Assembly: GCA_026001225.1 (NCBI GenBank)
Contig: BNZQ01000032.1
Coordinates: 1-21,040, forward strand
Reading direction: 5' to 3'
Source of the DNA: Clostridia bacterium
GTDB taxonomy: Bacteria; Bacillota; Clostridia; Christensenellales; DUVY01
Length of the DNA: 21,040 bases
Shown here: positions 4,009 through 20,747 of the stretch, in pieces
Numbering within the stretch: position 1 is the first letter of the stretch
Layout of the letters: every line of letters begins with the position of its first letter
Position numbers and translations under genes: made by a program
Notes under the pieces: model-generated
Seen by the model: only the letters and a program-made list of their open reading frames with translations
What the model was told of the DNA's origin: nothing
The model's database searches: none

Positions 4009-4755
4009 TTAACCTCTAAAAAATTCCCCTCTTGCGGGGCATTGCCAACAATTCAGTGATTTGAGCAAAGTATTTTTATGAACAAAGAGTAATAAAGTTA
4101 GTTGCAGCATATCGTATGTCTTTGAATAGCGTTTAGTCTTGCGATTAAATCTTGCAAGATTGACGCGGATACTGCTGTTTAAACTTTCTATTAGATAAGT
4201 TTGGTTTTTTGTCATTGCATGAGATTCAGTGATACCTAACTCTTGAAATGCCGCATCATAGCAACTGTTAGCGTCAGAATAAAATTGTATTCCACAGGTC
4301 TTATTCTTTTTACACTGTTGTAAATTGCCTTCGCCGCATTTATTCCGCACCCTATTACAAAACCTATAACTTTACGGCTGTTGCGTGAATACGCTGTCCA
4401 TATAAGAGTTCTCATCGGTTTTTTTAAACAAGCTGTATATATGTCAAGTCCTATTCTCGGTTGATGCATCACCGTTTAAAATCTCGGCATTTCCGCTTAA
4501 ATCATTTCCTGCTTGTCTAACCCAATTCAAAACGGTCTGTCGACTTACATTCATAAACAATGCGGCTTTTCTAATTCCCACATTATTGAGGTAAAGTTGT
4601 AAAACCTTTTGCTTTGCTGCGTTGCTAAATCGTTCATCTCTCCTTGAAAAGGTGCGTTTACAATCCTTGCAAATGTATCGATATGTCCCTCTGCTTGTAC
4701 CGTTCTTATTCGTGTTTATACTACCGCAATGTTTACACTTTGCACCCATACTCAT
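4009..4755 (-). pseudogene. IS1-family transposase, frame-disrupted
   Basis: The N-terminal part (4755-4444, 103 residues) is intact. It has a zinc ribbon CKHCGS...YRYICKDCKRTF, then a helix-turn-helix (KAALFMNVSRQTVLNWVRQAG) like IS1 InsA. The catalytic half, like InsB, is split over two frames: GLDIYT...IWTAYSRNSRKVIGFVIG (about 4450-4350) in one, then RNKCGEGN...FYSDANSCYD...LIESLNSSIRVNLARFNRKT in another (4350-4009). The last piece is in the same frame as the N-terminus, so two compensating shifts lie near 4440-4475 and 4345-4355. Likely DDE residues (D in LDIYT, D in YSDAN, E in LIESLN) are present but never in one continuous chain. The reconstructed length of ~248 codons suits a single-ORF IS1-family member. 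Non-functional as written. Confidence 0.8.
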
Positions 4756-5067: not shown

Positions 5068-5224
5068 ATGTAAAACCGTTTCAAGTCCGACCGAATTTTT
5101 ATGCAATAAAAATTCGTGGGCGATGTGGCATAACTCATGGTCGAAGAAGCGCGGAACGCGCGATCAAACGAGGAATCCGAGCAGGATTCCGACGTATGAG
5201 CAAAACGGAGCGCGCAGGAGCGCG
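5068..5224. other. pgi 3' spacer with several stem-loops
   Basis: No gene is seen. A perfect 11-bp AT-rich stem with a 3-base loop lies at 5092-5116 (CGAATTTTTAT/ATAAAAATTCG). Further on are GGAATCC/GGATTCC around GAGCA (about 5172-5190) and short GCGC stems (about 5149-5163 and 5209-5224). Read in the pgi direction, the GGAATCC stem is followed by TCGTTT, and a GCGCG/CGCGC stem by TTCTTC. One of these may end pgi transcription, but none has a strong U-tract. Confidence 0.4.
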
Positions 5225-6622
5225 TCAATCGACAATAAATTTCTCGTTGTGATAAGCGGATTTGATTTCCTTCAACTTTTCCTCGTAACCGGGACGGCCC
5301 AACATCGCGAACGTAGCTAACTTGCCCTCCTCTACGCCGGGTTGATTGTAGGTGTCCACGTCCAGCAGCGCACCCGCAAAGGCGGTCTGATACATCATAA
5401 ACATCAGTAATTGACCGACGGTGTATTCGTCCACCCCGTCGAGCAAAACCGTGAAATTGGGACGTTTGGCCTTGACCAACGCGAAAGCGGTCGCCTCGCG
5501 CTCGGCGTTAATCAGTTCGTTAAAGGTATGGTTCTGTAAAAACGCGGCCCCGCCCGCCCCTTTGACGGCGGGAATCTTTACTTCGGCGCGGAAATTCCGC
5601 ACGCCGATAAAGGTGATTACCTTGTCAAACGGGCCCTCGGTGTACAGTTGAATTTGGCTGTGTTGATCGGTCACGCCCAAGGCCTTTACGGGCGTTTGCC
5701 CCGCGTAAACGGTTTTGCCCGAATTGTCCGCGGCTTTCCCCAACGATTCGCCCCAAATCTGACAATAAAAATCCGACATGAATTTTAAGCTGTCCGCATA
5801 GGGCATCATGACCGAAATATTCTTGCCGCGTTTGATCGAATGATATTGCAAATATGCCCCCATAAGGGCCGGATTGAAGCGTACGCCGGTTTTACAACAA
5901 GCCTTCGACATATCCGCCGCGCCGCGCAGGAGCTTCTTTAAGTTGAGTCCCAACGCCGCGAACGGCAACAGTCCCACGGGACTTAAAACCGAAAACCGAC
6001 CGCCGACGCCCTTGCCCAAACCGTAAACCTTATAGCCGCGCTCGACGGCGATATTGTACAGCGTGCCTTTGCCGACCGTGGTGGTGACGACGATATTCTC
6101 CTTTGCCTTGTCGCCCAAGGCTTTATCGAGTATATCCAACACGAACAGCAGCTGAGACAATGTTTCGCCGGTCTCGCCCGATTTCGTGATCACGTTGAAC
6201 ATCGTGTCCGCGGGATCGATAATATCCAAAAGAGCGGACATTCTCTCCGGATCGACGTTGTCCTCCACGTAAAACCGGGGGCCCTTCCGCTTGCCCGGAC
6301 GAAGCTCGTTATGGCGCAGGTGCAAAAGCGCGTTCGCCACGGCCAAGGGGCCGAGCGCCGAGCCGCCGATGCCGAAAACCACAAAATTATCAAATTTTCT
6401 GCGGATCAAGCGGCCCGTTTCGGTCAGTTCTTCAATATAGGCTTTATCGACAAAGGGAAGCTCCGTCCATTCCTGCCATCCCTTGCCCCTGTTTTCTAAC
6501 ACCTTGGCGCGGGCAGCCGCAATGAGGGCTTTATCCTTATGAATGGCTCCCGCCGGCATCCCGTCTTTTTGGCCGATCGCCGCGGCCATCATATTGTTGT
6601 AGTCAAGCTGAAAATGCTTCAT
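5225..6622 (-). CDS. pgi: Glucose-6-phosphate isomerase
   Basis: Interconverts glucose 6-phosphate and fructose 6-phosphate in glycolysis and gluconeogenesis; cytoplasmic. At 465 residues it is the compact Firmicutes form. Visible hallmarks are IGGSALGP (85-92), the phosphate-binding TKSGETGETL, GVGGRFSVLSPVGLLPFA, the catalytic segment with DQHSQIQLYTEGP, and NQPGVEEGK near the C-terminus. All PGI signatures are intact. The start is backed by AGGAG about 8 bases upstream of ATG. It stands alone: IS debris lies downstream and the giant surface-protein gene upstream, separated by a terminator that leaves only ~24 bp before the start codon. Its promoter therefore has to lie in or across that terminator. 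Confidence 0.97.
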   Translation of the reverse strand: MKHFQLDYNNMMAAAIGQKDGMPAGAIHKDKALIAAARAKVLENRGKGWQEWTELPFVDKAYIEELTETGRLIRRKFDNFVVFGIGGSALGPLAVANALLHLRHNELRPGKRKGPRFYVEDNVDPERMSALLDIIDPADTMFNVITKSGETGETLSQLLFVLDILDKALGDKAKENIVVTTTVGKGTLYNIAVERGYKVYGLGKGVGGRFSVLSPVGLLPFAALGLNLKKLLRGAADMSKACCKTGVRFNPALMGAYLQYHSIKRGKNISVMMPYADSLKFMSDFYCQIWGESLGKAADNSGKTVYAGQTPVKALGVTDQHSQIQLYTEGPFDKVITFIGVRNFRAEVKIPAVKGAGGAAFLQNHTFNELINAEREATAFALVKAKRPNFTVLLDGVDEYTVGQLLMFMMYQTAFAGALLDVDTYNQPGVEEGKLATFAMLGRPGYEEKLKEIKSAYHNEKFIVD

Positions 6623-6704: not shown

Positions 6705-9700
6705 TTACCGCGTGTTCTTGCGGCGCACGCCGACGAAGTAGAACACCAAGCCGCCGATCACGACCACGCCGAGAATCGAGAAAATCACCGCCAAAGCCTT
6801 ATCGCTGATGACCTTGCCCTTGGTCTTTTCGGTAACCTTGATCGTGAAAGTCTTGATACCCTCGTTGCCCGCGTCGTCCTTGACCGTATACTCGACGGTG
6901 TAATCGCCCGGCGCGTCGAAGGTGTATTTGTTGTCGGGGATCTTGTCGCCGCCCTGCGTCGCGTTATTGAACTTCGCGTCGCCGTTCAGTTTCAGCTTCA
7001 TATCCACCTTGGATGTGATGTCCTTGGTTTTAGGTTCAGGGGTCGTGACGCCGTTCGTAATTTCATAGTATTTGTCGCTCGCCGTCACCGGATAGAAATT
7101 GAATTTATCCCCTACCTTGGCCTCGGTCGGATACTGATATTTGGCGTCCAACTTGATCTCCGGTACGAACACGTCTCCGATCTCTACCGTATAGGTCTGC
7201 GTGGTTTCTTTGCCGTTGTTGGCTGTCACACGGTAGGTAACCGTATATTTGCCGTCTTTGAGGGGTGTGAACTGCTTCCAACCCGCGTATTGCGGATCGA
7301 CGCCCGCATAGTCCTTGACGCCGATCGTCGTCGTGCCGTTCGATACCTCGATCACGGTCTTGGCCGAATCGACGCCCGAAACGCTGCTGGCGATCACGTT
7401 CGGAATCACCACATCCTTCTCGATCGCCTCGGATTTGGCGGGCACCAATCCTGTCAACTGCATCACGGGGCTGACCGTGCTTTCGGATTTGAAGCTGTCC
7501 GTGGTCGTCGCCATATTGGGCTTATCGATCGGATTGATACCGTACGAAAGAGGCGCATTCAAGGTAGTGGTCATATAATCGCCCGCTTTCATGATAATCC
7601 TGTACTCGCCGTTCGCCCACGAGGTCAAATCGCGGCCGGAAACCGAGAAGTGCGGCCCAATCACGGTCGTCCGATAGATATAGGGCAAATTGCCGTCCGG
7701 GAAAGCCGCTTGCACCTGCGATTGCGTCCAACCGGCAGGGTACGTGGCCGCATCCGACTCTATCACTTTTTCAGGATACACCTGATTGTCGGCCTCGTCA
7801 TAGTAATAATACGTTTTCTTCGGCAAGCTGACGGACGTCCCGAACTCCGCGGTGGCGGGCAGTTTGACCGTCGTAGAGGAGGCCGTGTTCTCGGTGCCGG
7901 CCGTTCTGCCGGTCACGTTCAAGAACAAAGTAATCGAAGATGTCGCGCCGGTCACGTCGAAAACGTTGACGCCGATCGAATAGATACCCTTGACAGAGGG
8001 CTTGAACGAGAAATTTTCAACGTGCAAAACTCTCGCGTTTGCGTTCGTATACGGATCGACCCAAAACGTCGATTCCATGTCGTCCACAATGTCGCCGTAT
8101 CCGTCCGCCGAAGGCTTACGCACCACGATCTCATAGCCCATATAATCGTCCGCTTTATTCAATGTCGCGACAATGCTGTCGATTCCGTACCAACCCTGGC
8201 TCAAATCCCAATCGCCGAGATCCGCAGACGCGAGCGCGGGCTGTCCGAAGACGGGAACGATCGATGTCAAGACGGGCGCTACGGCGCCTTGCGTCGGATC
8301 GATCAAATTGATCGACTGGATATCCTTTTTCTTGTTGCCGACGGCGTCCACCGCATACGTGATCACCTTGATCGACGTCGCGGTATTAAAGTTAGCCTTG
8401 CCGACAGGCAATACCGAAACCGCCGGAATATCGGTTTCATTGATAGGATCATATTTGACTTCGGACAACAAGCCGGAAGTCCCCAACAAATCGTTCAATC
8501 CCGTCGCGCTTTCCCATGCGAATTTATCAATTTTGCCGTTGTAGAACGCGTCCTTGTCGAGCTCGGCCACAACGTCCGCGCCGCCGTTCTTATAGAGGAA
8601 ATACCGCGTTTCGGAACGCACCGCGCCCACATTGTCGCTGACCTTAATCGCCGGTTTATTGAACGTTTCGCTGATTTTCACGTTCTTTTGCAAGTTTTCC
8701 ACCGTGATATAGGGCTGCTGCACGTCCTCTAACGTATCCACCAACGTGACCGTGAAGTAAGAGATCGCGGTGCTGTACGACTTGTTGTCGCGTTCCGCCG
8801 TATAGCGGATTTCATAATCGCCCGACGTGCGCAGCTCGCCCGCCGGAATCACATAGTAATCCTTCGGCACGCCGAAACCGTCCGTTACGGTTTTGACGTT
8901 ACTGTCCGTTTCGCCCTTCTTTTTCAGAATATCGTACGTGTTCTTGCCGGGCTTCTTATAAGCGACCTCGACGTTGGTGAATTGGGCGGCGACCACATTG
9001 TTGCTGATCACATAGTCGTCGGCTTTATCGAAATAAGGCAGATACAGATCGAAATGCGCGGACTTTTCGGCATCCGTAAGATTCGCGTAGACCCATTCTT
9101 TCGTAGGGCTGGCCGGACTCACATCGTCATAAACGCCGTTGACCAACTGCTGTACGCGCTTTTTAACCGTGCCCATCGCCCACTTGGAGGGAATCTCGCC
9201 GCTCTCGATCTTGATCCGCGGACGCTCGGTTTCGGACACCGTGATCGGAAACGACTTGATATCCTGTTTGCCGTCGTCGTTGGTCGCCGTGTAGGTCACG
9301 ACGTATTTCGCGCTGTCCGCGCTCCCGCCCAATGTGTGCGGATAGAAGGTCATATCGCGGGAGGTCGCAAAGCCGACGAGATTGCCCGTCTTTGCAGCGT
9401 CCGCGTAGAAATCCGTTCCGGCCTTGTATTGATCCAAAATATAGCCGGATTTTTCATCCAATTGCTTATCGTCGCGCACGGTGTAGACCTTGTCGGAATT
9501 GGCCGTATCGGGCGACGTAACCGCAACGGTGATCCTGACGTTGGTATCCCGCTTGTCCGTCGCGGTAGCGGTCGGCAACGTGATCTTCGTGTACAGCTTG
9601 CCGCTGTCCGGCACGCCGCTGACCGACAGCGTGGGCGTATCCGATGTCGCCGTATAGGCATTGTCCACGGTGACCGTGAACTCCTTTTGGATCGTCACAT

Positions 9701-10364
9701 TGCCCGGTAACACATAGTAATATTTGATAAAATATTTACCGCTGTGAAACGTTTGGTCGGACGTAATCGTACGTTTTTTGCCGTCCTTATTCTCCAAATT
9801 ATTGATATCCTGTATGCCCGCGCCGGTGACCAAAATCTTGATTTTCTCGTTTTCGGCGGTCTCCGCGGCCTGCACCTTACCCTTCGCGTCGGTGTAAATC
9901 AACCGGGCGGACGGCAACGTTTTATCAACCAAGGTTGTGCAATACGTCGGGATGTCCGCGCCGTCGGAATCGACCTCGATCGAGTAATCCTTTGCGGCGA
10001 CATGGAAACGAAGCGTCCGCGTCGTCGCGACCTTCTTCGGACTTGTGCTTACCTCGTTATAATAATCGATGGTATAATAGCCCGCGTACAAGGCCGTGTA
10101 GACCGTGCCGGGTACACAATCCTGCTCTCCGCCGGGGCCCTTGACCTTGGCCGAGAAGCCGTTAGAAGCGGACGGCACGGTGATCGGTGTTCCTCCCGCC
10201 GCCAGCTCGTATTCGGTTTGGAAGCCCGTAGCGGCGATAACCGTTTGGTAATCGCCAAAGGCCGCACGCACGGCGATCAAACCGGTCAGGTTGGCGGCGA
10301 ACAGCGCGACCGCAAGCAACGCGGTTCCCGTCAGAATGAAAAGTTTCTTGATGCTCTTTTTCAT
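6705..10364 (-). CDS. Giant secreted Ig-like repeat surface protein with C-terminal membrane anchor
   Basis: A 1219-residue exported protein, function unknown beyond a likely cell-surface adhesive or structural role. The N-terminus is a signal peptide: basic MKKSIKKLF, a hydrophobic core, and cleavage probably after VRA near residue 33. The ectodomain is a series of beta-sandwich modules, each ending in a Y.V.Y.A.D..G / .F.V.V pattern like bacterial Ig-like or HYR domains. Module ends are visible around residues 125, 236 and 380, at YFTVTLV in the middle, at TYTVEIGDV, and finally at DDAGNEGIKTFTIKV. The C-terminus has one hydrophobic helix (IFSILGVVVIGGLVFYFVGV) and a short basic tail, RRKNTR. 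No LPxTG motif is present, so anchoring is by the helix rather than sortase. The ATG at 10364 was chosen because AGGAG lies 12 bases before it; the frame is open four codons further to a TTG. Monocistronic, with its own promoter and terminator. Confidence 0.88.
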   Translation of the reverse strand: MKKSIKKLFILTGTALLAVALFAANLTGLIAVRAAFGDYQTVIAATGFQTEYELAAGGTPITVPSASNGFSAKVKGPGGEQDCVPGTVYTALYAGYYTIDYYNEVSTSPKKVATTRTLRFHVAAKDYSIEVDSDGADIPTYCTTLVDKTLPSARLIYTDAKGKVQAAETAENEKIKILVTGAGIQDINNLENKDGKKRTITSDQTFHSGKYFIKYYYVLPGNVTIQKEFTVTVDNAYTATSDTPTLSVSGVPDSGKLYTKITLPTATATDKRDTNVRITVAVTSPDTANSDKVYTVRDDKQLDEKSGYILDQYKAGTDFYADAAKTGNLVGFATSRDMTFYPHTLGGSADSAKYVVTYTATNDDGKQDIKSFPITVSETERPRIKIESGEIPSKWAMGTVKKRVQQLVNGVYDDVSPASPTKEWVYANLTDAEKSAHFDLYLPYFDKADDYVISNNVVAAQFTNVEVAYKKPGKNTYDILKKKGETDSNVKTVTDGFGVPKDYYVIPAGELRTSGDYEIRYTAERDNKSYSTAISYFTVTLVDTLEDVQQPYITVENLQKNVKISETFNKPAIKVSDNVGAVRSETRYFLYKNGGADVVAELDKDAFYNGKIDKFAWESATGLNDLLGTSGLLSEVKYDPINETDIPAVSVLPVGKANFNTATSIKVITYAVDAVGNKKKDIQSINLIDPTQGAVAPVLTSIVPVFGQPALASADLGDWDLSQGWYGIDSIVATLNKADDYMGYEIVVRKPSADGYGDIVDDMESTFWVDPYTNANARVLHVENFSFKPSVKGIYSIGVNVFDVTGATSSITLFLNVTGRTAGTENTASSTTVKLPATAEFGTSVSLPKKTYYYYDEADNQVYPEKVIESDAATYPAGWTQSQVQAAFPDGNLPYIYRTTVIGPHFSVSGRDLTSWANGEYRIIMKAGDYMTTTLNAPLSYGINPIDKPNMATTTDSFKSESTVSPVMQLTGLVPAKSEAIEKDVVIPNVIASSVSGVDSAKTVIEVSNGTTTIGVKDYAGVDPQYAGWKQFTPLKDGKYTVTYRVTANNGKETTQTYTVEIGDVFVPEIKLDAKYQYPTEAKVGDKFNFYPVTASDKYYEITNGVTTPEPKTKDITSKVDMKLKLNGDAKFNNATQGGDKIPDNKYTFDAPGDYTVEYTVKDDAGNEGIKTFTIKVTEKTKGKVISDKALAVIFSILGVVVIGGLVFYFVGVRRKNTR

Positions 10365-10555: not shown

Positions 10556-10681
10556 ATGCGCGCAAAGCAAGAAAAAAGAAGAATAGTCCGCAAGAAAAAA
10601 AGAATAATTCGCCGTTACGGGCGGCATACTAATGATAAACGACCGATATCGTCAAAAAAGGAGGATTCGTACCATGCCTAA
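10556..10681 (+). CDS. Candidate 41-residue highly basic small protein
   Basis: A short frame opens with ATG at 10556, preceded by GAAAGGA about 7 bases upstream. It stops at 10679-10681, overlapping the first 8 bases of the next gene (which starts at 10674). Of 41 residues, 17 are Arg or Lys (starts MRAKQEKRRIVRKKKRIIRR), suggesting nucleic-acid binding or simply an A-rich leader. The overlap suggests translational coupling to the ferritin-like coat gene. Alternatively it is a chance frame in A/G-rich leader sequence. I do not recognise a family. Confidence 0.4.
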   Translation: MRAKQEKRRIVRKKKRIIRRYGRHTNDKRPISSKKEDSYHA

Positions 10682-10874
10682 ACCCAAGCTTGCCGCTAAA
10701 AATTTAGAGGTTTTGAGTGAATTGATGCTGATCGAGGAGCTTGCATACAAAAAATGCGATTTGTATTCGCGCTCGTTTAAAGACGACGCCTTGCAAACGC
10801 AATGCAAAGACCTCGCCCAAAACCACAAGGCGCGCTTCAACGCCTTGCACGATTATCTCAATTCCCACAACTGA
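10674..10874 (+). CDS. Small ferritin-like / spore-coat-like helical protein
   Basis: A 66-residue protein starting MPKPKLAAKN, with AGGAGG 8 bases before ATG. The frame is open 14 codons further upstream, but those overlap the ribosome binding site. It is almost wholly helical, with two amphipathic segments (LEVLSELMLIEELAYKKCDLY and DLAQNHKARFNALHDYL). The EE...K and H/N-x2-RF pattern resembles the short ferritin-like partners often found beside CotF genes in Clostridia. Its neighbour at 11057 is CotF-like, so both may be coat or forespore proteins. Assignment to a named family is uncertain. The stop lies two bases before a palindromic repeat element. Confidence 0.75.
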   Translation: MPKPKLAAKNLEVLSELMLIEELAYKKCDLYSRSFKDDALQTQCKDLAQNHKARFNALHDYLNSHN

Positions 10875-10876
10875 CT

Positions 10877-11000
10877 TTTAACGGCATATACGTCGTCGGA
10901 TTCGGGCGGCGATCGGTTCGCCGCTCGGTCATGTATGCGAATACATTCCCTTCGCGGCTCGTCAACTGCTGCCCGACTGCGGCGCGCCTATGCCGTTAAA
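10877..11000 (-). repeat. Structured palindromic element, copy A
   Basis: A 124-bp unit closed by perfect 12-bp arms TTTAACGGCATA / TATGCCGTTAAA. Read on the minus strand it has: outer stem, inner stem TCGGGC/GCCCGA, the stretch AGC...GACGAG...CGAAGGGA, hairpin ATGTAT-TCGC-ATACAT, then GACCGAG. The same layout and words occur at 20093-20220 with different but still paired stem sequences. The element begins two bases after the stop of the upstream plus-strand gene and ends 56 bp before the cotF-like gene. No reading frame in it looks coding. Confidence 0.7.
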
Positions 11001-11056: not shown

Positions 11057-11338
11057 ATGCAAACAGCTACGGCCGCTTTAGCGGAAAAGGACATGCTGCA
11101 AGACATTTTGGTGCTGGAAAAGGATATGGTCAAGACCTACGGCCATTATTTGATCGAGGTTTCCTGCCCGAATCTGCGCAACGTCCTGACCAAAAACCTC
11201 AAAGACAACGCCGGCGATCAATATCAGGTCTTTGCCGCGATGACCGCGCGCAACTATTACCCCGTCAAGGAAGCGCAGGAACAGGACGTGCAACAGGCCA
11301 AGACAAAATTCGACGGCATCGCGGATATGATCAACTGA
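11057..11338 (+). CDS. CotF-like spore coat family protein
   Basis: A 93-residue protein matching the CotF/coat-F domain: helix EKDMLQDILVLEKDMVKTYGHYL, then SCPNLRNVLTKNLKD, then QYQVFAAMTARNYYPVKEAQEQDVQQAK. The ...Q.qvF..M...gyYPv..A pattern is characteristic of the family. These ferritin-like four-helix proteins are common in Clostridia and often occur as tandem paralogues; only some are proven coat components. GAAAGGAG lies 9 bases before ATG. It follows the smaller coat-like gene on the same strand, with palindromic element A between them, so they may be one transcript. No clear terminator follows. Confidence 0.85.
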   Translation: MQTATAALAEKDMLQDILVLEKDMVKTYGHYLIEVSCPNLRNVLTKNLKDNAGDQYQVFAAMTARNYYPVKEAQEQDVQQAKTKFDGIADMIN

Positions 11339-13050: not shown

Positions 13051-13419
13051 CTATTTTTGTTTCCCGCGGTAGTTATCGATCGCCGCTTTGATCGCTTCCT
13101 CCGCCAATACCGAGCAATGGATTTTCTGCGCGGGAAGCTCGTCCAACATGTTCACCACATCCTTGTTGGTCAATTTTAAAGCTTCCTCTACCGTCTTACC
13201 CTTGATCAGTTCGGTCGCGACGCTGCTGGTCGCAATCGCCGCCGCGCATCCGAACGTCTGAAATTTGGCGTCGGTGATTTTGCCGCCTTCGATTTTCAGA
13301 TACATTTTCATGATGTCGCCGCATTTGGCGTTGCCGACCTTGCCCACCCCGTCGGCGTCCTGTATCTCGCCCACGTTCTTCGGGCACGTAAATTCCTTGA
13401 TGACCTTTTCATTGTACAT
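13051..13419 (-). CDS. iscU: Fe-S cluster scaffold protein, IscU/NifU-N type
   Basis: Scaffold on which Fe-S clusters are built from sulfur delivered by the cysteine desulfurase encoded upstream. The 122-residue protein carries the three ligand cysteines: C33 in NAKCGD (with D35), C58 in FGCAAAIA and C102 in KIHCSVLA. The KCGD arrangement without the SUF-type zinc insertion marks it as IscU/NifU-N rather than SufU. It is a stand-alone N domain with no NifU C-terminal extension. AAAGGAG lies 8 bases before ATG. It is the last gene of the minus-strand block, downstream of iscS across a 297-bp spacer that contains a stem-loop immediately upstream. Confidence 0.96.
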   Translation of the reverse strand: MYNEKVIKEFTCPKNVGEIQDADGVGKVGNAKCGDIMKMYLKIEGGKITDAKFQTFGCAAAIATSSVATELIKGKTVEEALKLTNKDVVNMLDELPAQKIHCSVLAEEAIKAAIDNYRGKQK

Positions 13420-13716
13420 ATAATGCTCTCCTTTGAAGACCGTCGCCTATCAGGTTTGATACAGGCTACGCTTACCAAGTCCGAAACTCAATCTGCGACG
13501 GCTCTTGCGTTTTTATTCGGTTGAAATTCCACGGCGGGCCGACGCACGCTGCCCTGACCCTACAGCGTTCCTCTGAATGACACATAGCGCGTTCGCGTCG
13601 TTAATCGCCGTTACAAGGTGCAAATCCCGTCGTTTTTTGTCATTGCGAGACGAACGCCTCCGAATGACGCACAGTGCGAAACCGTCTTTGCAATCGTCCG
13701 TACCTTTTACCTTGTA
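13420..13716 (-). other. iscS-iscU spacer with leader-like stem and repeat remnants
   Basis: No gene is seen in 297 bp. Just before iscU, CCGTCGC (13440-13446) pairs with GCGACGG (13495-13501), enclosing the small hairpin TATCA-GGTT-TGATA (13448-13461). On the iscU transcript this would be a ~62-nt structured leader ending ~20 nt before the start codon. The rest holds two decayed repeats: TTCCACGG...TCCTCTGAATGACA (13527-13582) and GTCATTGCGAG...GAATGAC (13639-13668). No strong promoter was found. Confidence 0.4.
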
Positions 13717-18636: not shown

Positions 18637-18644
18637 GTGTTCCG

Positions 18645-18690
18645 TTACGAAGTACATTCTTTAAGAATTTTTAAAGAATGTACTTCGTAA
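18645..18690 (-). repeat. Perfect 20-bp-arm palindrome overlapping the hslU stop
   Basis: Arms 18645-18664 and 18671-18690 are perfect reverse complements around GAATTT. The right arm encodes the last hslU codons and stop (TKYIL then TAA), which are conserved in the family. The left arm is therefore the intergenic copy. A 20-bp stem could end transcription or protect the 3' end, but no U-run follows on the hslU strand. Confidence 0.7.
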
Positions 18691-19990
18691 GATCGTGTTT
18701 CTTGACCGTGCCTTTCAAATGCTCTTTCACATAGGCGCGGTCGATTTTGACCTCGGTTTCGGGGTGTTGACCGTCCGCGTTAAAGGAAATATCTTCGAGC
18801 AGCAGCTCGATGATATTGTGCAGGCGGCGCGCGCCGATATTCTCGCTCGTTTCGTTTTCCAACACGGACACGGCGGCGATCTCGTCCACGGCGTCGGCCG
18901 TAAACGTCAATTTGATATTGTCCACCGACAGCAGGTGCGCGTATTGCCGCGTGATCGCGTTCTCCGGAATCGTCAAAATATCCACGAAATCCTTGTGCTT
19001 TAAGCTGTCCAATTCGACCTTGACCGGAAAGCGGCCCTGCAATTCGGGAATCAAGTCCTCCGGTTTGGATATATGAAACGCGCCGCTCGCGATAAACAGA
19101 ATAAAGTCGGTTTTGACCGGCCCGTATTTGGTGATGACCGTGCTGCCCTCGACGATCGGCAGAATGTCGCGCTGAACGCCCTCGCGCGAAACATCGTGCC
19201 CGCCGCCCTGATTGCTCCGCGCGGCTATTTTGTCGATCTCGTCGATAAAGATAATGCCGTCCTGCTCCGCGCGTCGCACCGCCTCGGTCGTGATCGCGTC
19301 GTTGTCGATCAGCTTGTCGCCCTCCTCGGCAATCATCAAATCCAAGGCTTCCTTGACGGTCATTTTGCGCTTTTTCTTCTTTTTGCCGCCAAACAAGCCG
19401 CCCATCATGTCGCCGATATTGATCATCTCCATACCGCCGCCCGGCATCAACTCCATGGGCTTCGGACGGTCGGTCACGTCGATTTCGATTTGCAATTTAT
19501 CCAACGCGCCGCTCCGCAACTGGTCGGCGACCTCGGATTTGATCAGCGGTTCGGGCGTGTCCACCGACCGCGCTTTACGGTCATGCACCAAAATATCGAT
19601 GATGCGGGCCTCCGCCGACGCTCGCGCCTTGCCCTCGACCTCGCGGAATTTCTCCTCGCGCACCAAACGCACCGCCACCTCGGTCAGGTCGCGGATCATC
19701 GACTCGCAGTCCCGCCCGACATAACCGACCTCGGTATACTTCGTCGCCTCCACCTTGATAAAGGGCGCCTTGACGAGCCTCGCCAAACGACGGGCGATTT
19801 CGGTTTTGCCCACGCCGGTCGGCCCTTTCATCAGGATATTTTTGGGCGTGATTTCCTCCCGCACCGCGTCGGGCAGTTGGCTCCGGCGGTAACGGTTGCG
19901 CAGAGAAACCGCCACGGCCCGTTTGGCGGCGGCTTGCCCGATAATAAAGCGGTCGAGCTCCAACATGATTTGTTTCGGTGAAAGGTCCAT
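18671..19990 (-). CDS. hslU: HslU, ATPase subunit of the HslUV protease
   Basis: AAA+ unfoldase that feeds substrates to the HslV peptidase. Its 439 residues carry Walker A GPTGVGKT (56-63), the pore loop GYVG (89-92) that threads substrate, an I-domain (about 110-235) with a basic KKKKKRK stretch, Walker B IIFIDEIDK (246-254), and ELQGRFP with the arginine finger region near 320. The C-terminal YIL, which inserts into HslV to activate it, is intact (KYIL at the end). The start has AAGGA 7 bases upstream. hslV is upstream on the same strand, but 223 bp of repeats lie between, unlike the usual tight coupling. Confidence 0.97.
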   Translation of the reverse strand: MDLSPKQIMLELDRFIIGQAAAKRAVAVSLRNRYRRSQLPDAVREEITPKNILMKGPTGVGKTEIARRLARLVKAPFIKVEATKYTEVGYVGRDCESMIRDLTEVAVRLVREEKFREVEGKARASAEARIIDILVHDRKARSVDTPEPLIKSEVADQLRSGALDKLQIEIDVTDRPKPMELMPGGGMEMINIGDMMGGLFGGKKKKKRKMTVKEALDLMIAEEGDKLIDNDAITTEAVRRAEQDGIIFIDEIDKIAARSNQGGGHDVSREGVQRDILPIVEGSTVITKYGPVKTDFILFIASGAFHISKPEDLIPELQGRFPVKVELDSLKHKDFVDILTIPENAITRQYAHLLSVDNIKLTFTADAVDEIAAVSVLENETSENIGARRLHNIIELLLEDISFNADGQHPETEVKIDRAYVKEHLKGTVKKHDLTKYIL

Positions 19991-20092: not shown

Positions 20093-20220
20093 GGTTTAAC
20101 GACATAGATACGGCATCAGACGGACAGCTGGCGAGGACAACGACGGGAGCGTAGTCAACCTACGTGACCGAGGAGGACAAGCACGCAGTCCGTATCACGC
20201 CGTATCTATGTCGTTAAACC
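20093..20220 (+). repeat. Structured palindromic element, copy B
   Basis: A 128-bp unit with perfect 22-bp arms (20093-20114 and 20199-20220; TTTAACGACATAGATACGGC is the core of the left one). Nested inside are a 5x5 internal loop ATCAG/ATCAC and stem ACGGAC/GTCCGT (20120-20125 / 20188-20193). Then comes AGCTGGCGAGG...CGACGGGA, hairpin GCGTAG-TCAAC-CTACGT (20149-20165) and GACCGAG. The hairpin base holds tandem G-A mismatches (G47-A48 opposite G66-A67, last two digits) closed by CGG/CCG. Same plan as the element at 10877-11000. The right arm contains the hslV stop codon. Confidence 0.75.
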
Positions 20221-20747
20221 GTTTCCACGGTTATATTCCCGTTCGTAAATATGCAAATTTGACCCGCGATTTCGATCGCCTTTTTCGCGATATCCTTCGC
20301 GCCCAAGCCGGTTTCGTTCATCAGCGCGCGCGCCGCCGCCAAGGCGTAATTGCCGCCGCTGCCGATCGCGCACACGCCGTCCTCCGGATCGATCACGTCG
20401 CCCATGCCGTCGATGATCAGCAGGGACTCGACGTCGGCAACGATCATCTGCGCTTCGAGCCGACGCAAAAACTTGTCGCCCCGCCACATCCGAGCCAGCT
20501 CCACCGCGCCGCGCATCAGGTTGCCGCTGTATTTTTGCAGCATTTCCTCGAAACGCTCGCTCAACGTGAACGCGTCGGCGACCGAGCCCGCAAAGCCCGT
20601 GACGACCTTGCCGTCAAAAATGCGGCGCACCTTAATCGCGTTGTTCTTTAAGACGACGCTTTGGCCGCCGGTCACCTGTCCGTCGCCCGCGATCGCCGTC
20701 ACGCCGTCGCGCTTTACCGCGACGATTGTCGTTCCGTGAAGTTCCAT
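20214..20747 (-). CDS. hslV: HslV, peptidase subunit of the HslUV protease
   Basis: Proteasome-like threonine peptidase forming two stacked hexameric rings, driven by HslU. The 177-residue precursor begins MELHG, then [10 protein letters not shown], so a five-residue propeptide should be removed to expose Thr6 as nucleophile. Conserved AGDGQVT, the lysine in [29 protein letters not shown] and [15 protein letters not shown] follow. The short propeptide resembles clostridial forms; Bacillus ClpQ uses an N-terminal serine instead. First gene of the minus-strand block, with a clear promoter ~95 nt upstream. The final Val codon and TAA lie inside the arm of palindromic element B. The ribosome binding site is AAGGCGG. 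Confidence 0.97.

Follow-up and report, generated by a model that had tools for sequence, protein, structure and literature searches.

Palindromic repeats at stop codons in uncultured Clostridia, probably distant kin of ERIC

ERICs are regarded as repeats of enterobacteria and vibrios, and REP units are tied to Y1 transposases (RAYT). ERIC is described in V. cholerae (PMC2267715). TA ends and a TA target duplication are reported for ERIC in one passage of another paper (PMC2759123), and the relevant part of a review states that ERICs within Yersinia operons alter the stability of upstream mRNA in an orientation-dependent manner and calls the mode of ERIC movement an open question (PMC2229807). 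For REPs no more than 15 nt from a stop codon, a portion of a further study describes stalled ribosomes and lowered translation of the upstream gene (PMC12306157). Searches of CC-licensed PMC papers gave no account of ERIC relatives in Clostridia.

Here we describe a palindromic element found in the window, the whole 21,040-nt stretch of DNA that was analysed (contig BNZQ01000032.1 of the Clostridia bacterium assembly GCA_026001225.1). Its copies A and B probably belong to an ERIC superfamily of non-coding, palindromic, non-autonomous mobile elements of ~125 bp that spread in trans and act, most likely, as an mRNA hairpin at gene ends. The analysis establishes the fold, its covariation, the copy number, homology between models in both directions, the presence or absence of the element at orthologous sites, and a fixed position and polarity at stop codons.

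Structure and copies of the element

Copy A (10877..11000, minus strand) is a near-full-length element of 124 nt that scores 90.7 bits against the covariance model R1. Copy B (20093..20220, plus strand) is full-length, with 128 nt and 92.9 bits. As the original prediction had it, the two share one fold: the minus strand of copy A forms one long hairpin at -62.9 kcal/mol (z -6.15), and so does the plus strand of copy B at -72.3 kcal/mol (z -11.23), with 0 of 200 shuffles as good in either case. The outer arms are TTTAACGGCATA/TATGCCGTTAAA in copy A (within 10877..11000, minus strand) and form a perfect 22 bp helix in copy B. The strand with the conserved GA motifs, minus for A and plus for B, is referred to as the core strand. 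Along it the order of parts is arm, an AGAC/GGGC region, inner helix, C GA (n) GG GA, hairpin, GA CC GA G, inner helix and arm. The core segment of copy A (10914..10964, minus strand) contains the lower stem, tandem G.A motifs, GG/CC and the hairpin ATGTAT...ATACAT, and that of copy B (20131..20182, plus strand) reads CGACGGGA-GCGTAG...CTACGT-GACCGAG. Tandem G·A oppositions stand before and after the hairpin, their inner pair being intact in 57 of 70 copies. The first pair of the hairpin is a nearly fixed G·U, present in 34 of the 42 clostridial type 1 copies scored there.

A search of the window against Rfam gives 11 matches at E ≤ 5, none of them over A or B and none at gathering score. The earlier failure to recognise a named family holds as far as Rfam is concerned, but not beyond it, as the element is kin of a named repeat, ERIC. 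An intrinsic terminator was rejected, there being no T run behind A or B. By coincidence the ends of copy B resemble the R'/R'' boxes of an integron attC site. The ends of other copies do not read in this way and the conserved part is the inner core, so this identity was set aside on the sequence of the copies.

With copy B as the blastn query, further copies appear in the same genome (G000). Two subfamilies were aligned from these, and R1 was built from nine type 1 copies. This nine-copy alignment of one subfamily shows two-sided change in 24 of 48 pairs, with 90.0% of cells paired; slid controls of the same alignment have 28.0–34.5% of cells paired. None of 500 shuffles does as well in pairing, in covariation score or in the count of two-sided pairs, and 1 of 500 does so in the number of pair types. 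The paired changes first noted in several stems are therefore real and extend beyond A and B, and the selection on a fold proposed from them is judged likely.

Against the 2.2 Mb genome R1 gives at least 96 matches at E ≤ 1 on both strands, with 150 of the 413 first-look candidates scored. Against the window and 50 fetched stretches of the genome it gives 116 matches, which reduce by hand to 79 non-overlapping places. Of these, 70 are near-full-length copies (>100 nt and >25 bits); the nine dropped are short deletion forms or weak matches, including at least one (L176:6569) that looks like chance. The family is composed of two main subfamilies, types 1 and 2, together with short deletion forms. 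What had been taken for an element in two copies is a dispersed, high-copy repeat with ~70 near-full-length copies in the genome. The original prediction had staked itself on the existence of further copies and on stems that do not break as often as they hold; both were tested and both were borne out. Its observation is confirmed. Its interpretation is partly supported, and the antisense placement of the element at stop codons had escaped it.

Kin in other Clostridia, which the original prediction had suspected, are present in further genomes of both the order and the class. R1 matches at E ≤ 0.01 in 12 of 61 neighbouring genomes, the source genome included, and some of these matches are only weak (G008, G053). 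It has no match in three genomes of the same family that are 89–97% complete (G002, G004, G005). The class was searched with R2, a model of the core only, with at most 20 candidates scored per genome. At least 10 of 291 genomes match, again with the source genome included, and among these class matches three are chance-like (L208, L210, L211). There are clear cases outside the order (G333, G127, G082, G154), all with the same kind of fold. An exact ERIC-type pattern occurs in 2 of 398 genomes phylum-wide, and this pattern is too narrow for the source genome's own copies. The observed spread is a lower bound, and a noisy one.

Two genomes of different families (G033, locus L131; G012, locus L132) each contain one near-identical hairpin bearing the core, next to tRNA genes: tRNA-Val and tRNA-Ala in L131, tRNA-Leu in L132. 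The dispersed copies differ in this respect. This hairpin may be a single-copy relative or mark an integration site. L154 (~5177-5227, 5919-6030 and 9654-9707) holds further short dispersed repeats, which have many hits in G001; no relation to the element was seen.

Position at gene ends, mobility and the far arm

In the window copy A is flanked by a short gene (10674..10874, plus strand; longer ORF form 10632-10874), which has no Pfam family, and by a gene with a Coat_F domain (11057..11338, plus strand). The TGA of the short gene (10872-10874) ends 2 nt ahead of copy A, whose core strand is antisense to that gene. Copy B lies between an hslV-like gene (20214..20747, minus strand; Pfam Proteasome) and, downstream of the copy and in the same direction as hslV, an hslU-like gene (18671..19990, minus strand; AAA_2). 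The stop codon of the hslV-like gene (TAA, 20214-20216) falls inside the 3' arm of copy B. A NifU_N gene (13051-13419, minus strand) starts 17 nt downstream of an internally deleted short relative with type 1 arms (13437..13504, minus strand). This relative is a weak match to R1 (E 0.048 in the genome search, 0.0059 in the fetched stretches) and is assigned by its arms and position. Elsewhere in the window, two ORFs at 4009-4755 resemble an IS1-type transposase pair: the one at 4444-4755 passes the cut-off for HTH_28, and the one at 4009-4350 has a DDE_Tnp_IS1 match (E 0.0059) that falls short of its own. The hslU stop is the site of an inverted repeat (18644-18690), in which the last 20 nt of the gene, stop codon included, return as an exact inverted copy beyond a short loop, without the element core; Rfam hits there are below gathering scores. 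Among 158 element-free gene ends examined, hslU is the only one with an inverted copy of at least 12 nt.

Position relative to genes was counted for 106 copies from three genomes of a single family (70 in G000, 24 in G001, 12 in G003), leaving out one G001 copy cut by a contig end and using 12 of the 13 R1 matches in G003. Gene ends were taken from our own codon-usage gene caller rather than from annotation. In 68 of the 106 copies a gene on the opposite strand has its stop codon no more than 12 nt from the 3' end of the element, and in none of the 106 is the stop of a sense gene within the same distance of the element's 5' end. As a control, 3711 of 82726 intergenic positions (4.5%) are within 12 nt of any stop codon. 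A further 16 of the 106 copies precede a start codon in sense, at a distance of 1-24 nt. Neither the stop nor the start rule describes 22 copies, in six of which the called stop falls within the element (-14 to -39), and six antisense starts within 30 nt of the element's 5' end fit no stated rule. The copies are intergenic, and by the same gene caller it is mostly the arm alone that overlaps gene ends. In other genomes of the order and class an antisense stop is found 41-72 nt 3' of the core centre in 15 of 28 distinct loci (31 rows, in which three places are shown twice).

Comparison of congeners shows sites with and without the element. In a stretch of the source genome with six listed copies, three of the four copies compared are absent from the syntenic DNA of G001 and the fourth is shared. 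At the three sites that lack the element in G001, two genes stop at the same codon and the third gene is one codon longer in G000. Conversely, one G001 copy corresponds to a G000 site without the element with both flanks aligned, and a second, partial element stands beside the G001 copy. The unfilled G000 site has 12 nt, ~10 of them identical to part of the element, and G000 may therefore have lost a copy. Different subfamilies occur at the stop of one gene in G000 and G001 (L201/L271), which is recurrent use of one site. The same hslV stop is occupied by a different element in one contig (L028, isolate name Lapin-014). In other genomes hslV and hslU are no more than 66 nt apart in 61 of 74 loci, a gap too small for the element, and in 35 of these no more than 11 nt apart. 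The hslU locus of another MAG (L016) has two tandem cores behind hslU with the same polarity as the L028 element.

The fold appears to be kept up where a site is shared. Three orthologous sites hold the element in both congeners. With every pair scored from either sequence, which lets a single change count twice, 25 changes lead from one Watson-Crick pair to another and 13 to G·U; 8 lead to A·C and 10 are of other kinds (18 broken pairs), with 198 pairs unchanged and 4 gapped. Double changes thus probably exceed what independent change at this divergence would give. One of the orthologous pairs (L157/L253) may represent two independent insertions.

No mobilising enzyme was found when RVT_1 and Y1_Tnp were compared with the distribution of copies. 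RVT_1 was not found in five element-carrying genomes that are 98-100% complete (G010, G019, G036, G127, G288). It is present in G000, G034 and G333 and in two genomes chosen as element-free. A retroelement partner was rejected because RVT_1 does not track copies. Y1_Tnp was not found in element-carrying G000 (78% complete), G019 (99%) and G036 (98%) and is present in G001, G010, G127, G288 and G333, a mixed pattern on which a RAYT/IS200 partner was also rejected.

The stop codon lies inside the arm in 36 copies, and in 28 of these the far arm repeats the gene's own stop (18 TAA, 10 TGA). Within the 28 the identity of the far arm runs on into coding sequence for 3.4 nt on average and up to 13; with swapped genes the mean is 0.50 and never exceeds 1.04 in 2000 trials. 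This copied gene end and the placement and polarity at stop codons are two features that look new. The copied end could date from the landing of the element, result from template switching afterwards, or reflect selection for longer stems. Tentatively, entry of the element might be coupled to gene 3' ends: the free sense strand at the stop would prime synthesis along the core strand and then snap back on the gene end, which would fix the polarity and write the inverted stop and the last coding bases into the far arm. If true, this would amount to stop-codon-targeted mobility, probably driven by host enzymes, and would bear on the whole ERIC superfamily.

Such a route could also be taken as the main source of the structure. 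Synthesis primed at the gene 3' end and snap-back of the new strand would then make the perfect arms, with selection on the fold secondary. The stop copied in the far arm (28 of 36 copies, 3.4 nt as opposed to 0.50 with swapped genes), the fixed polarity at stops and the 20-nt inverted copy that hslU carries of its own 3' end without any core all agree with this account. However, arm repair alone would erase the tandem G.A pair that 57 of 70 copies keep intact, and neither a reverse transcriptase nor a Y1 transposase tracks the copies. We regard it as doubtful.

Kinship with ERIC

The core of the element is one that we take to be the ERIC core, CCCCAG-GA-GCTTAC..GTAAGT-GA-CTGGGG; this ERIC sequence has a match in 5375 of 5426 E. 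coli genomes. R1, built from clostridial copies, aligns with all model positions to the ERIC between ybhI and ybhJ of K-12 (E 3.5e-5 in 12 kb). It matches ERICs over positions 1-127 in 9 of 13 enterobacterial loci, two of which are one locus in two strains (E 9.7e-6 to 0.026), and, in a single E. coli record, 5 of 12 ERIC loci (E 1.9e-4 to 0.12). The core-only model R2 has no match in three ERIC loci. Since R2 finds no ERIC and R1 misses 4 of the 13 and 7 of the 12 loci, the kinship is distant.

In the opposite direction a model of 18 ERICs, R3, was used, which combines 11 from E. coli or other enterobacterial records with seven ERIC-like ones from IMG/VR contigs of unstated host. The 18 aligned ERICs covary (22 of 39 pairs two-sided, 94.1% of cells paired) and all 18 have the G.U at the base of the hairpin. 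The best match of R3 in 259 kb is copy B, at 36.4 bits and E 1.3e-6. In the window and the 50 stretches of the source genome it marks 12 places at E ≤ 0.1 (E 1.3e-6 to 0.083), all of them R1 places; copy A and most of the genome's own copies do not reach that threshold. For 42 loci from other genomes or contigs R3 has 39 matches (best E 9.3e-11); some loci carry two or three of them and some loci overlap. Six loci from two more genomes of the phylum yield another five. Its alignments to clostridial copies cover model positions 1-125, with ends at or near those of ERIC. The outer motifs AAGGCG ... CAACGCA are found in ERIC order in several clostridial copies, including those of G333, and E. coli carries copies with the core GGAGCGTAC...GTACGTGAC. 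Based on these two-way model matches and shared outer motifs, the ERIC superfamily reaches into Clostridia, at large distance.

The traits of ERIC are shared to different degrees. Length agrees with the ~127 bp of ERIC (124 nt for A and 128 nt for B, with all 127 model positions covered in the own-genome matches listed), as does the long imperfect palindrome folding as a single stem. The architecture of the GA-flanked hairpin GGAGCNTAC...GTANGTGAC is kept while its stem bases vary; the exact pattern has no match in G000 and is present in copies of G333, G010 and others. TA ends were not seen at the ends of copies, which vary with the gene end, and the sole pair of filled and empty sites shows no TA duplication. 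The element is therefore filed as kin within the ERIC superfamily and not as ERIC proper.

These gaps leave some room for convergence, in which unrelated clostridial palindromes would share with ERIC a short GA-flanked hairpin because tandem sheared G.A pairs are a common stable solution. R2 has no ERIC match, few invariant bases are shared, and the TA ends of ERIC are absent. However, the alignments of R1 (1-127) and R3 (1-125) run across all model positions with ends at or near those of ERIC, AAGGCG and CAACGCA are common to both groups and in order, and E. coli itself has copies bearing GGAGCGTAC...GTACGTGAC. Convergence is unlikely on this evidence, and common descent with ERIC is the reading followed below.

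ERIC-like sequences are also found outside both groups. The exact ERIC-type core occurs in 59 IMG/VR stretches. Strong flanking complementarity (z>4) accompanies 27 of 60 IMG/VR matches, duplicates included, and by eye most of these resemble enterobacterial ERICs. Four IMG/VR loci (L346, L349, L359, L368) have ERIC-like cores with complementary flanks and a host that is unknown or outside enterobacteria and Clostridia; L368 is without an R3 match. A plasmid of Sulfurovum mangrovi (L324, Campylobacterota) likewise has an ERIC-like core between complementary flanks and gives a weak R3 match (E 0.0022). L205, L359, L346 and L402 look like intermediates that could bridge the ERIC and clostridial types.

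Probable role and related repeats

The balance of G·U and A·C mismatches, viewed on the core strand, was used to ask which strand folds as RNA. In the pooled stems of type 1 copies in the source genome there are 55 of each, and an RNA fold of the core strand is therefore not favoured. Divided by context, the G·U:A·C counts for these copies are 24:40 at stops, 21:13 at starts and 10:2 elsewhere, and those for type 1 in G001 and G003 are 9:24, 4:3 and 1:5. For type 2, over the columns common to both folds, they are 16:13 at stops, 0:3 at starts and 7:6 elsewhere; at stops the count becomes 27:16 or 16:24 depending on the folded strand. ERIC has 37:5, its fixed wobble pair left out. These counts, whose cells are not independent, suggest that the mRNA strand has an excess only in type 1 copies at stops.

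By analogy with described repeats, copies are expected to form hairpins at the end of a message. They would spread in trans. A copy that has landed would be transcribed together with the gene, its hairpin following the termination codon immediately or else just preceding a start codon. Most likely this hairpin would tune translation termination and how fast the upstream message decays. A family of regulatory RNAs (riboswitch-like or sRNA) multiplied by duplication without transposition of its own would agree with the strong covariation, the upkeep at orthologous sites and the 16 of 106 copies in sense 1-24 nt before a start codon, but is very improbable given that 68 of 106 copies have their core strand antisense to the gene, that the neighbours within the window are unrelated (HslV-like, Coat_F, NifU_N) and that presence differs between congeners.

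Read as mobile elements, the clostridial copies supply covariation evidence for the fold and sites at which one congener has the element and another lacks it. They add a sharp positional rule, the stop of the antisense gene, and, in the copied gene end, a possible trace of insertion. With these, comparison of close genomes or cultured relatives can put the mode of mobility to the test.

Several known repeats share some of these features. REP, BIME and REPIN are likewise palindromes at gene 3' ends, and GTAG-type REP ends often provide the stop codon, according to one section of a published study (PMC3733652). However, REP units are 20-40 bp long as compared with ~125 bp here, and Y1_Tnp does not track the copies. 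The BOX elements of pneumococcus, compared by description only, are also dispersed but consist of modular boxA, boxB and boxC; according to part of one report, 36 CDSs of one genome have their stop codon encoded by such an element (PMC3049150). YPAL or RU-2, again compared by description only, is a palindromic mobile repeat as well, 168 bp in length, with targets that span or adjoin dyad symmetry as stated in a portion of the review (PMC2229807). The closest resemblance is to ERIC (IRU, RU-1), with its ~127 bp, long imperfect palindrome, GA-flanked central hairpin, fixed G.U and dispersed intergenic copies. The clostridial element differs from it in its far greater sequence diversity, the lack of TA ends and its host, uncultured Clostridia. 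Placement at the stop of an antisense gene also sets the two apart, being found in 68 of 106 clostridial copies as opposed to 4 of 11 annotated enterobacterial ERIC loci and 1 of the 12 loci of one E. coli record.
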